Origin: Planctomyces sp.
GTDB lineage: Bacteria; Planctomycetota; Planctomycetia; Planctomycetales; Planctomycetaceae
DNA: 64,000 bases
Assembly (NCBI GenBank): GCA_013822855.1
Contig: PNLE01000001.1
Coordinates: 1 to 64,000 of the forward strand
Direction of reading: 5' to 3'
The notes under the pieces are model-generated. The model had not been told where the DNA came from. It did not search any database and saw only the letters and a list, made by a program, of their open reading frames with translations. Within the stretch, counting starts at the first letter, position 1. Each line of letters starts with the position of its first letter. Position numbers and translations under genes: made by a program. Positions 48,340 through 52,925 of this stretch are shown here, one piece after another.

Positions 48340-49416
48340 TCAGATCAGTTCCGCACGCTTGCGGGAGAGGTCATCGAAGCAGGCCTCAAGGCACAGACTC
48401 AGGTTGGCGTTCTGATGGACGTGCATACCGGCCTCGATCACGCGATCCACCATGACCGCCAAGCCTTCCAATGTTTCGGCATTGGCACCCAGCATGCGGA
48501 CAAATGCCGCCACATCGGGATTGGCCTGAAGCTCTTTGGAACCCGTTTCCCGGCCCGTGTGGCAAAGGCCGCCAATCACTTGCCGAAGGTAGTCGACAAT
48601 GAACTTGAAGACGTGCTGCAGGATCTCCCGCTGGCCCGATGTTTCCGCCGCTATTCCTTCGACCTTCGACATGACGGCTTTGGCCAGGGTATGTCCCTGA
48701 AATCTTCGTTCGCGCAACGTCGATTGAAGCTCGCGTCGAAGTTCCCAAAGGACGGGGTCGAGCAATTGCCTGGCCAAAGCCAAGCTACCATCGCAAAGAA
48801 GACTCACCTCGCGTGCCGCGGCCTCGTCAACGGAGCCATCCGCCGAAAGAAGTGTGATCAAGTCGGTTGAGCCAAGAGGCTGGAAACGCACCAGATGACA
48901 TCGCGAGCGGATCGTCGGCAGAACGGTCTCCAATGTCGCGGCGACGAGAATGAGAATCGCTCTGTCGGGAGGTTCTTCCAACGTTTTAAGGATGGCGTTG
49001 GCCCCGGCATCGTTGAGCAGATGGGCATCGTCGATGATGGCGATCTTCCGACCGCCCGCGAGCGGCTTGATCGAAAGACCGTGACAGAGCCCTTCTTGAC
49101 CCCGGTTCTCTTTCGAGCCGACCAGGAGTTCGATCGGAATCTCCCGCTTCCCCTCGGGGCATTCGACGACCTGGAAGTCGGGATGGGTGCCTGCCAGAAA
49201 TGGACGGCAGCCACCACATTCCCCGCAGGCATCCAATTCGTGATGGGCTCGCTTGAGACAGAACATCGACTGGGCGAACTTCTGCGCGACCAGCCGCTTG
49301 CCGACTCCTTCCGGCCCGACAAAGAGATATCCGTGAGCCAGCCGCCCGCGTGCCGCAGCCCGACTGAGTTGCTCGATCGCGATGGTTTGGCCACGCACTT
49401 CACTCCAGACCGACAT
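48340..49416 (-). CDS. holB: DNA polymerase III delta-prime subunit
   Basis: A 358-residue clamp-loader subunit of the replicative polymerase. AAA+ features are an N-terminal VRGQTIAIEQLSRAAARGRL, Walker A region GYLFVGPEGVGKRLVAQKF, zinc-binding Cys cluster CGECGGCRPF, Walker B-like KIAIIDDAHLLNDAGANAIL, KTLEEPPDRAILILVAATLE, and sensor 1 PTIRSRCHLVRF. It is longer than E. coli HolB and shares the DnaX-like N-terminal half. It could be confused with DnaX, but the length and absence of a tau-like tail favour delta-prime. Its start overlaps the lipoyl-like gene by 17 bases, indicating translational coupling. Confidence 0.9.
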   Translation of the reverse strand: MSVWSEVRGQTIAIEQLSRAAARGRLAHGYLFVGPEGVGKRLVAQKFAQSMFCLKRAHHELDACGECGGCRPFLAGTHPDFQVVECPEGKREIPIELLVGSKENRGQEGLCHGLSIKPLAGGRKIAIIDDAHLLNDAGANAILKTLEEPPDRAILILVAATLETVLPTIRSRCHLVRFQPLGSTDLITLLSADGSVDEAAAREVSLLCDGSLALARQLLDPVLWELRRELQSTLRERRFQGHTLAKAVMSKVEGIAAETSGQREILQHVFKFIVDYLRQVIGGLCHTGRETGSKELQANPDVAAFVRMLGANAETLEGLAVMVDRVIEAGMHVHQNANLSLCLEACFDDLSRKRAELI

Positions 49417-49732
49417 GATCCGATGGCTCCTCTAAGTCGCGATCGATCCGCTTGGTAGATCCTGTTCCCGGTGCACTGAGTGTCAGGAGCAATTGGCCCG
49501 GTCGGATGCTGCTGCCCGTGGTTACCATTAGGCGGTGAACCACTCCCGCACAAGGACTTTCCAGATCCCGGCTGACGCCCTCGATTCCGATCTCGGCCAG
49601 GCGATCCTGGGGACTGATCACGTCCCCCAATTCCACGAGCCAGGCGAACAAGATCAACGGCTCACCGGAAGACCACTCCGGGGCCAGAATTTCTGTCAAA
49701 GAGGCCCCCGGATCTGGTTGTCGCTCCGTCAT
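49400..49732 (-). CDS. Lipoyl/biotinyl-like domain protein without the attachment lysine
   Basis: 110 residues with a single biotinyl/lipoyl-type fold. The pattern LFAWLVELGDVISPQDRLAE (first half hammerhead strands) and ESPCAGVVHRLMVTTGSSIR (second half) matches E2 lipoyl domains. At the hairpin where E2 proteins have an E-T-D-K-A turn, this protein reads IGIEGVSRDLES: Gly replaces the modified Lys. It therefore probably cannot carry lipoate or biotin. AAGAAGG lies about 10 bases before ATG 49732. It overlaps the holB start by 17 bases and follows secDF on the same strand. Function unknown. Confidence 0.75.
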   Translation of the reverse strand: MTERQPDPGASLTEILAPEWSSGEPLILFAWLVELGDVISPQDRLAEIGIEGVSRDLESPCAGVVHRLMVTTGSSIRPGQLLLTLSAPGTGSTKRIDRDLEEPSDHVGLE

Positions 49733-49928
49733 CCGTGAGTTGCCTTCTTTGGGATTCACAGGAGTGGTGGGGGAATCAGGGCTTAAGACCCCGATCCGAA
49801 TGAGACAGTTCATTATGCCGCAGGATCCATCGGCACTCACTCAAGAACGAAGACGGCCACCTCACATCGTTGTGAGGCGGCGGTCTCTGTGCGATTCGCC
49901 ATCAAACAAGTCGGCCCCTGCTGTGGTC

Positions 49929-52925
49929 TCAGGCGGCCACTTTAGCGGGTGCGGGCTGGGGAGCATTGCGGCTGACCAGCCAGTACAGAACAGGGTTGGC
50001 GATGAAGACCGTGCTGTACGTTCCGGCGATGGTGCCGACGATGAAGCTGTAAGCGAATGTATGGATCCCCTCGCCACCGAAGATGTAGAGGATGACGACC
50101 ACGATCAGCACGGTGGTGGCCGTCAGAATCGTCCGCGACATCGTCTGGTTCACACTGAGGTTGATCATGTCATAGGTGATATTGGGGTTCTTGCCCTTGA
50201 TCTCGCGGATACGGTCGAAGATGACGATCGTGTCGTTGAGAGAGTATCCGATGATCGTCAGGATCGCCGCGATGAAACCCATATTGATCTTGAAGTCCTC
50301 GAGGCCCAGGATCGCACCGATCGGTGTCTGGGAAAGCCATGCTCCGACAGCGATGCTTCCCAAGACCACCAACGCATCGTGGGTCAGCGCGGCCACTGCG
50401 GCAAAGCCGAAGTAAAGCTTTTCAAATCGGAACCAGATGTAGACCACGATCGCGATCAGGCTCAATAGAACCGCCGCTAAAGCATTCAGTTGGGTTTCAA
50501 AACCGACCGAAGTGTCGAACGAGTTGAATTCGTCGAAAATCGGCTCGTTCGCCAGTTGTGTGGCGAGGGATTTGAGTGCTGTGGCCAGATCGGCGGGAGG
50601 AACATCGGAGGTGACCCGCGCAACCAATTCGGTGAACTTGCCACTGCCAGCCGCTCCGCCCTCTTTGACACCATCCACCAGGACGAGGCCAATGGGAGAT
50701 TCGAATTTTGGGGCATTCCCCGTTCCCGGAATGGCCTTGAGTTGCTCGGCCAGATACTCGGCGATGGTGGCCTCGGCAACGGCATTCGTGAATGCCAAAG
50801 GCACACGTTGCCCACCGCTGAACCGATCGATGTTGGTTCCCGGCCGGTTGCGGATCGTCTTGGCGTCATCAGGAGTGACGGGCGTGATCTCGCCATAGGT
50901 CATCTCGGCACGACTCAAGGCCATTTCAGGCGCAGCGAAGGCATCGTTGATCAGCGTGCGAACCTGCGGGCGGTCGACGAGGTTTGTCCTGATGCGGAAA
51001 CGGGTTCCCGCATTGGCAGCCTCGCTGTTGATACGAAGTTCTTCAAGCGAAACCGGTGTCGGGAATTTGTCATCCAATTTTTCACGGACAACGGAGGTTT
51101 CCTGCGGCTTCTGGAATTCGAGGGTGACCATTGTGCCGCCGGTGAAGTCGATATCGAGATTCTCCCGACCCCTCAATCCCAGGGTGACAAGCCCAATTAT
51201 GATGACAGTCGCCGAAAACAGGATGGCAGGCACTCGCATGGCCAGGAAATCGACCCCGCTCAGCTTGATAGTGGGCATCATGGCGAGAGTCTTCACAAGC
51301 CGCTTGCGCTCGATAACATCGAAGCAGATTCGGCCGAAGACAAGAATGGCGAACATCGAGGCTGTCAGACCGATGAAGAGCGAAACCGCGAAGCCTTTGA
51401 CTTGGTCGGTGCCGATCATGAAGAGGATCACAGCGGTAATGAGCGAGGTGATGTTGCCGTCGACGATGGCGGAAAGGGCCTTGTCGAAGCCGTTCTGGAT
51501 CGTCATCCGCAAGCTCGCCCCGCGGGCGATTTCTTCCCGGAAACGCTCGTAGATCAGCACGTTGGCATCGACCGCCATACCAATGGTGAGCACCAGCCCC
51601 GCAAGACCCGGGAGGGTGAACGTCGCATCGATGAAGGCCATCGCCCCGACGACGAGGATCAAATTCAACACCAGACACAAATCGGCGATCACGCCGGAAA
51701 CGAGGTAGTAGACCGCCATGAAGATGAAGACGGCCGCGGCGGAGAGGAGAATCGCCAGGATCCCCTTCTGCTGGACATCGGCCCCGAGCAATGGACTGAT
51801 GGTGAATTCGCTGATCGGCGTGGGAACCAGAGGAACCTCGAGAGCACCGGCATTCAATACACCGGACAACTCATCGACTTCCTTGCTATTGAAATCCCCC
51901 GTGATCTGCCCTCCACCGGATGACAGGCGGGCTTTAAGAGATGGTGCCGAGTAGATCTTGCCGTCGAGTAGAATGGCCAAGTGGCGTTCAAACTTGTCGA
52001 CGGGATCGGGGGCGTATTTGGCAGTCAAGGCGTCGAGACGGATCGAACCAGTTGTCGTCATGCGGAACCCGACTGCTGGCCGCCCCGACTGTTGATCAAT
52101 TTCGCGCTCCGCTTTTTGCAAGAGTTTGCCAGTGACCTGCTTATCGGCTGGTTCATGAACTACTAAGAATTGCTGAACATCGACCAGTTCACCTTTGTCA
52201 TTTCGCCGCTTTACGAATCGGATCTGTGTTTGATCACCTTGGCTTTGGCTGACGGTTTTGCCTTCGGCGACATTGCGCCAGCTGGCCACCAGTTTGCCGT
52301 CTTCACGGATATCGTCTATGTTTTCTCCCAACTGATTGGCCCGACTGATCAAGGTCGCATGATCGCGTGCGTTGGCGAGGATGGCGAACTCAAGGCTCCC
52401 CAAGCGGGTGATGAGCCGCTTCTTCTGCTCGACAATATCCTTATCAGCACCAGGGATGATGATTTCGATTCGATCGCGACCGACGCGGCGAATTGTGATT
52501 TCTTCCGCACCGGAGGGATTCAGGCGTTTTCCAATCGCCTGCACGAGGCGTTCCACCATGTCGATGTCAAGAGTCTTGCCGTCGGCCTTCACCGCTTCCG
52601 TATCGATCTGGTAGACGAGGTTGGTCCCACCTGCCAAGTCAATACCTAGTGGAATGGCCTTCCAGATCCCTTCACCGCGCACGCCATGATAAATGAAGGG
52701 CGTCAGTGCCAAAGCCGTTGCAAAGATGACGGTACTCAGCCGGAAGCTGATGTCCTTCATCCGCAGGGCGTTTCCAATGAGCGTCCCCAGCACGAAGGGG
52801 AGCGTCACCACGCACAACGCGATGATTCCCATCAGCCAGATGTCCGTGGACGACGTGGCGGCGGGGACTTCGGTAACCACAGGCGCCGCCTGGAGCAAAG
52901 TCAAACCTGAGAACAAACCTTCCAT
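49929..52925 (-). CDS. secDF: Protein translocase SecDF fusion
   Basis: 998 residues combining SecD and SecF, which use the proton gradient to pull secreted proteins through SecYEG. The N-terminus has two membrane helices before the SecD periplasmic region (PLGIDLAGGTNLVYQIDTEA, near residue 90). The SecD membrane half includes GLVLTIGMAVDANVLIYERF, the conserved DANV proton-path motif. SecF begins near residue 600 with LDIDFTGGTMVTLEFQ, and ends with IGYSLNDTIVIFDRIREIKG and TTVLIVVVILYIFGGEGI. A long periplasmic loop makes it larger than the separate E. coli proteins. tgt and yajC lie upstream on the same strand, the classic order. Confidence 0.95.
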   Translation of the reverse strand: MEGLFSGLTLLQAAPVVTEVPAATSSTDIWLMGIIALCVVTLPFVLGTLIGNALRMKDISFRLSTVIFATALALTPFIYHGVRGEGIWKAIPLGIDLAGGTNLVYQIDTEAVKADGKTLDIDMVERLVQAIGKRLNPSGAEEITIRRVGRDRIEIIIPGADKDIVEQKKRLITRLGSLEFAILANARDHATLISRANQLGENIDDIREDGKLVASWRNVAEGKTVSQSQGDQTQIRFVKRRNDKGELVDVQQFLVVHEPADKQVTGKLLQKAEREIDQQSGRPAVGFRMTTTGSIRLDALTAKYAPDPVDKFERHLAILLDGKIYSAPSLKARLSSGGGQITGDFNSKEVDELSGVLNAGALEVPLVPTPISEFTISPLLGADVQQKGILAILLSAAAVFIFMAVYYLVSGVIADLCLVLNLILVVGAMAFIDATFTLPGLAGLVLTIGMAVDANVLIYERFREEIARGASLRMTIQNGFDKALSAIVDGNITSLITAVILFMIGTDQVKGFAVSLFIGLTASMFAILVFGRICFDVIERKRLVKTLAMMPTIKLSGVDFLAMRVPAILFSATVIIIGLVTLGLRGRENLDIDFTGGTMVTLEFQKPQETSVVREKLDDKFPTPVSLEELRINSEAANAGTRFRIRTNLVDRPQVRTLINDAFAAPEMALSRAEMTYGEITPVTPDDAKTIRNRPGTNIDRFSGGQRVPLAFTNAVAEATIAEYLAEQLKAIPGTGNAPKFESPIGLVLVDGVKEGGAAGSGKFTELVARVTSDVPPADLATALKSLATQLANEPIFDEFNSFDTSVGFETQLNALAAVLLSLIAIVVYIWFRFEKLYFGFAAVAALTHDALVVLGSIAVGAWLSQTPIGAILGLEDFKINMGFIAAILTIIGYSLNDTIVIFDRIREIKGKNPNITYDMINLSVNQTMSRTILTATTVLIVVVILYIFGGEGIHTFAYSFIVGTIAGTYSTVFIANPVLYWLVSRNAPQPAPAKVAA

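Follow-up and report, generated by a model that had tools for sequence, protein, structure and literature searches.

A lipoyl-type protein without its acceptor lysine and a degenerate LipB homologue are retained together in a class of Planctomycetota

A small stand-alone protein with a lipoyl-type domain (denoted LIP) and a homologue of the octanoyltransferase LipB have degenerated in parallel and are inherited together, with LIP under purifying selection, in the bacterial class represented by the window, a stretch of 64,000 nucleotides from Planctomyces sp. We give about even chances to the proposal that LIP, formerly a substrate of LipB and of the lipoyl synthase LipA, now serves LipA and the pseudo-LipB, in unmodified form, as a docking or regulatory partner. 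The features of the window that bear on LIP are listed below.

49400..49732, (-) strand: LIP (P0001), a stand-alone, lysine-less lipoyl-type domain protein of 110 amino acids; ATG at 49732, stop at 49400-49402
49577..49579, (-) strand: Gly52, encoded by GGC, in the beta-turn at the position of the E2/GcvH lipoyl lysine as placed by the DNA, the turn in the model and the alignment column
48340..49416, (-) strand: holB (DNA polymerase III delta' subunit), a conserved neighbour that overlaps LIP by 17 bases
49400..49416, (-) strand: the 17-base overlap of the LIP stop with the holB start, read from the DNA
49929..52925, (-) strand: secDF (identified by Pfam), upstream of LIP with 196 bases between them

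The LIP frame remains open further upstream to a GTG at 49840 (49733-49840, (-) strand); alignment of the homologues favours the ATG at 49732.

The first-pass annotation had described LIP as a lipoyl-type domain with glycine in place of the lipoylated lysine, and both parts of this description were confirmed. LIP matches the Biotin_lipoyl family (PF00364, Pfam) with an E value of 5.3e-8 (33 bits; cut-off 22.1). Its AlphaFold2 model (pLDDT 87, with high confidence over the domain) contains the strands of a lipoyl domain, and a Foldseek search with this model retrieved BCCP and the lipoyl domains of E2 proteins at target-normalised TM scores up to 0.95. The flattened beta-barrel, or hammerhead, of lipoyl domains is thus present by all three approaches. 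The predicted turn is formed by E51-G52, between strands 44-50 and 53-58, and places Gly52 where lipoylated E2 and GcvH domains carry an exposed lysine ([DE]KA or VKA). The sole lysine of the entire protein is K94, in the tail. The MKM biotinylation motif of biotin carboxyl carrier domains is likewise absent from the turn, the same alignment column containing no lysine. The match to a membrane-fusion hairpin of the HlyD type (Pfam HlyD_3, 25 bits) is confined to the second half of the domain; this assignment was rejected because the structures nearest the predicted fold are lipoyl and biotinyl domains. An E2 fragment or a contig artefact is ruled out by the occurrence of the stand-alone gene across the class.

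Gene content of relatives points to Planctomycetota, and probably to the class Planctomycetia, for the window. An alignment of 31 LIP members (A1) was used to search 199 genomes of the window's class; here and below, counts for class and phylum are based on the kinship labels of the genomes. The alignment search found stand-alone LIP in 135 of them, and two more copies (one frame-disrupted) were located at lipB-like/lipA loci. At the column of the lipoyl lysine, the 147 distinct LIPs of the class have glycine (82), proline (29), glutamate (14), serine (11), alanine (9) or aspartate (2) and never lysine, which is present at that column in all E2 domains caught by the same search. These homologues exclude a local mutation of the lysine. 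The first-pass annotation had also considered a lysine elsewhere at the turn; no such shift was seen, the two residues on either side of the turn being free of lysine in all 147 aligned sequences. Conserved positions include W31, which is invariant (147/147), Asp56 (83%) and a G-[DE]-R motif (positions 42-44; Q42 in the window), the arginine of which is atypical for E2 domains. Between congeners, dN/dS is ~0.1, and LIP is under purifying selection. The class-wide absence of the lysine, the invariance of W31 and the low dN/dS establish that the change is old and that the protein has been kept. The earlier suggestion of a repurposed fold is therefore well supported: the lysine is gone from every homologue in the class, while fold and sequence are constrained. 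Continued attachment of a cofactor to LIP, on a different residue or through other chemistry, is highly improbable. The carrier fold is intact in the prediction and Asp56 is largely conserved, as this alternative would have it, but no column of the alignment exceeds 9% lysine, and the various residues found at the turn share no nucleophile.

Around LIP in the window, Pfam identified HolB, SecDF, YajC, TGT and an SDR. The first-pass annotation had remarked on a 17-base overlap with holB, a position behind secDF and a lack of E1, E2 core or carboxylase genes nearby; the first two are exactly as described, and none of these genes was found by Pfam among the neighbouring genes examined. The claim that LIP is coupled to holB stands in part. 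Either tmk or holB follows LIP at 77 of 139 class loci, but lipA lies directly upstream at 69 of 145, with a LipB homologue before it, and the gene order in many relatives is lipB-like, lipA, LIP, (tmk), holB. This arrangement was already seen in the first relatives read, in which LIP is preceded by lipA (TIGR00510, 352 bits; cut-off 310) and a LipB homologue (PF21948). Both lipA and tmk/holB flank LIP at 51 class loci, and neither does at 45. The identified neighbours are lipB-like, lipA, tmk, holB or secDF genes, and none places LIP in a 2-oxoacid dehydrogenase or glycine cleavage context. Because lipA directly precedes LIP and the LipB homologue precedes lipA, we assign the functional context to lipoate assembly and not to replication. 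In the window's genome, the lipB-like/lipA pair lies on contig 86, apart from LIP, and this separation holds for the genus, which explains why the pair escaped the first-pass annotation. secDF lies upstream of LIP in the window's genus and at none of the other loci checked for it, and occupies the place often taken by lipB-like/lipA in relatives.

These data also bear on a role of LIP in replication or holB expression, either as a clamp-loader accessory or as a leader gene that sets the level of HolB through the overlap. Such a role would account for the overlap in the window and for the frequency of tmk or holB downstream. We nevertheless consider it very unlikely, given that about half of the loci have neither gene downstream, that 15 loci keep lipA without them, that tmk is often interposed between LIP and holB, and that the presence of LIP tracks that of the LipB homologue. 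It is thus likely that holB is not the functional partner of LIP.

Among the class loci with enough flanking sequence, the 45 at which LIP lies apart from both lipA and tmk/holB include L044, L045, L166 and L226. In some relatives, holB is followed by a PSP1-domain gene (L064:5948-6805 (+) and L063:6043-6957 (+)), an arrangement comparable to the tmk-holB-yaaT region of Firmicutes.

The class LipB homologue (c0) resembles LipB octanoyltransferases of known structure both in sequence, matching 2qhs (E value 5e-24) and 1w66, and in predicted fold (TM score of 0.92 to 2qhs). LipB catalysis depends on a Lys/Cys dyad, K135 and C169 in E. coli, and the inactive K135A/C169A variant still binds octanoyl-ACP (PMC9307952). 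Unlike the known enzymes, the class homologue has lost this dyad: the catalytic lysine is present in none of the 80 copies read, being replaced by Q, R, P, L and others, and the cysteine column is mostly occupied by G, D, N or A; many family f3 copies have a cysteine displaced by one column (VRCDG). What is preserved is the predicted fold, together with much of the sequence for substrate binding. The genomes read also encode LplA-like and LipM-like proteins, which we infer to supply the octanoyl groups.

A degenerate LipB that still acts as an octanoyltransferase through other residues, with LIP as its obligatory structural subunit, would explain the co-occurrence of the two proteins, and the preserved fold, the retained binding sequence and the displaced cysteine of some copies are consistent with it. 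We regard this as unlikely, however, because the lysine is missing from every copy read, the cysteine column is unconserved, and LipM-like and LplA-like proteins coexist with it.

One LipB homologue, at L064:2619-3365 (+), scores above the TIGR00214 cut-off (95.5 versus 83.55 bits; NCBIfam) with both catalytic residues missing; the other homologues scanned fall below this cut-off. At L289 (G074), L365 (G337) and L352 (G466), a LipB with an intact dyad and LipA occupy a single open frame of 544-639 residues, and these frames are possibly natural fusions. A LipA-LIP fusion in G466 was ruled out, the two genes being in different frames.

Across the 199 class genomes, LIP and the LipB homologue were found together in 134, LIP alone in one, the homologue alone in 13 and neither in 51 (Fisher p 6e-34, a value that ignores relatedness). 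Restricting the count to degenerate LipB, with G138 and G191 added and G100, whose LipB has the dyad, removed, gave 136, one, ten and 52 genomes, respectively; the ten contain degenerate LipB without detected LIP. LIP is absent from G074, G100 and G218, the three genomes of the class in which a LipB with both dyad residues was found. Of the 51 genomes with neither LIP nor the LipB homologue, 48 have lipA, so that the pair is accessory to LipA and a simple link of LIP to LipA alone is ruled out. Families f1, f3, f5 and f7 and genera g47 and g94 each include genomes with and without the pair, a pattern suggestive of multiple joint losses of LIP and degenerate LipB. In a distance correlation, the partial r of LIP with c0 was 0.42 and that of c0 with HolB was higher (0.57), and this signal is hence not specific to the LIP-c0 pair.

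The loss of active residues and the absence of both proteins from 52 genomes might be taken to mean that LIP and the degenerate LipB are relics decaying after takeover by a LipM-type enzyme. A relic would not be expected to show the low dN/dS, the invariant W31 and the co-retention in 136 genomes described above; this reading is largely refuted by the constraint, and we assign it only a minute probability.

Stand-alone LIP also occurs in other classes of the phylum, where several loci have the order lipB-lipA-LIP-tmk-holB. There, the turn lysine (TDKA or TEKT) is present in 46 of 50 distinct LIPs, and all 24 LipBs examined in genomes with LIP have both the lysine and the cysteine of the dyad. 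The four LIPs without lysine comprise three from family f87 (glutamate) and one from family f99 (asparagine in the member read); no LipB was found in these two families, only hits of the LplA/LipM type. Among the lysine-bearing cases, G311, G340, G433 and G471 had no LipB among the hits read, the weaker hits having been read in part, and the assemblies of the last three are only 81-86% complete. The simplest reading is that LIP retains the lysine wherever a catalytic LipB is available to modify it and loses it when LipB is degenerate or absent, the fold being preserved for another purpose. The first-pass annotation had reasoned that homologues with a normal DKA site would imply a local mutation. 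Such homologues do exist, as TDKA orthologues in other classes, but they do not point to a local event; rather, they show an ancient loss of the lysine throughout the window's class. With the window LIP as query, three distant matches were obtained in related loci, and the two that were read are lysine-bearing domains. A LIP tree computed from ~80 positions, with 70 class members sampled, places the class LIPs in one clade (support 0.90) and the out-of-class LIPs in another (0.71); in the LipB tree, 98 degenerate LipBs form a single clade with a support of 1.0. Lysine-bearing lipoyl domains were also found in very long frames of ~930-1200 residues at L019 (G017) and L029 (G052), and group in the tree with the LIP family and not with other E2 domains.

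LIP has parallels to several known systems. With the E2 lipoyl domain of 2-oxoacid dehydrogenases (PF00364; 1lab, 1qjo, 3crk) it shares the fold, the sequence family and a gap-free turn; it differs in lacking the acceptor lysine, in being a stand-alone protein of 80-110 residues that is not encoded with E1, E2 or E3, and in often having a T-F-[DN]-V motif that follows the turn and a G-[DE]-R motif that precedes it. In the LipM-LipA-LipL pathway of B. subtilis, GcvH serves as a relay for octanoyl and lipoyl groups (PMC10332631) and is, like LIP, a stand-alone lipoyl protein in lipoate assembly. By analogy, the lysine-bearing LIP orthologues of other classes may work in the same way, whereas LIP itself is E2-like and not GcvH-like in sequence and has no lysine in the window's class. 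Similarly, LbpA of the sHdr sulfur-oxidation system (PMC6067878) stands alone as a lipoyl protein and has assembly genes of its own encoded alongside, but LbpA is lipoylated, while LIP lacks the acceptor lysine and its neighbouring LipB is degenerate. According to a survey of LipB, LipM, LipA and ligases across prokaryotes by Tanabe et al. 2023 (PMC10332631), LipB is rarely found together with LipM; the string 'planctomyc' is absent from its main text. No description of a stand-alone lipoyl protein that lacks the lysine and is linked to lipA, or of a lipB-like/lipA/LIP cassette, was found in the open-access papers searched, which is weak evidence of absence.

We propose the following course of events. 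Ancestral LIP would have been a dedicated lipoyl carrier and a substrate of both LipB and LipA, the products of the adjacent genes. In the window's class, LipB has lost its catalytic lysine and mostly its cysteine, and LIP its acceptor lysine, with LipA remaining intact and other transferase- or ligase-type proteins (LipM-like and LplA-like) being present alongside it. LIP would now be free of cofactor, its lipoyl fold docking as a pseudo-substrate on LipA, on the pseudo-LipB or on both; a docking or regulatory role towards LipA is put forward because LipA is the partner present throughout. The pseudo-LipB may still bind octanoyl-ACP, given how much of the substrate-binding sequence, along with the fold, it has retained. 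The pair would thus scaffold, gate or sense the supply of octanoyl groups for lipoyl synthase. The missing lysine of LIP, the parallel loss in LipB, the joint inheritance, the operon, the predicted fold and the purifying selection are observed; the ancestral carrier role of LIP, its binding partners and its regulatory or scaffolding role are presumed. The separation of LIP from lipB-like/lipA in the window's genus, the unspecific distance correlation and the ten genomes with degenerate LipB but no detected LIP count against the model. That the two proteins, having lost their catalytic and acceptor residues in parallel, persist as a catalytically inactive complex by which lipoyl synthase is controlled or chaperoned is, in our estimation, slightly short of an even bet.

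If true, the pair would constitute a pseudoenzyme and the pseudosubstrate that belongs to it; it would be unusual for an enzyme and the protein it modifies to degenerate jointly with both under selection. A testable question follows: do a lipoyl domain that cannot be modified and an inactive octanoyltransferase regulate LipA or assemble it? For the class itself, the annotation of lipB is unreliable, and profile-based surveys of lipoate pathways may count such genomes as users of LipB.
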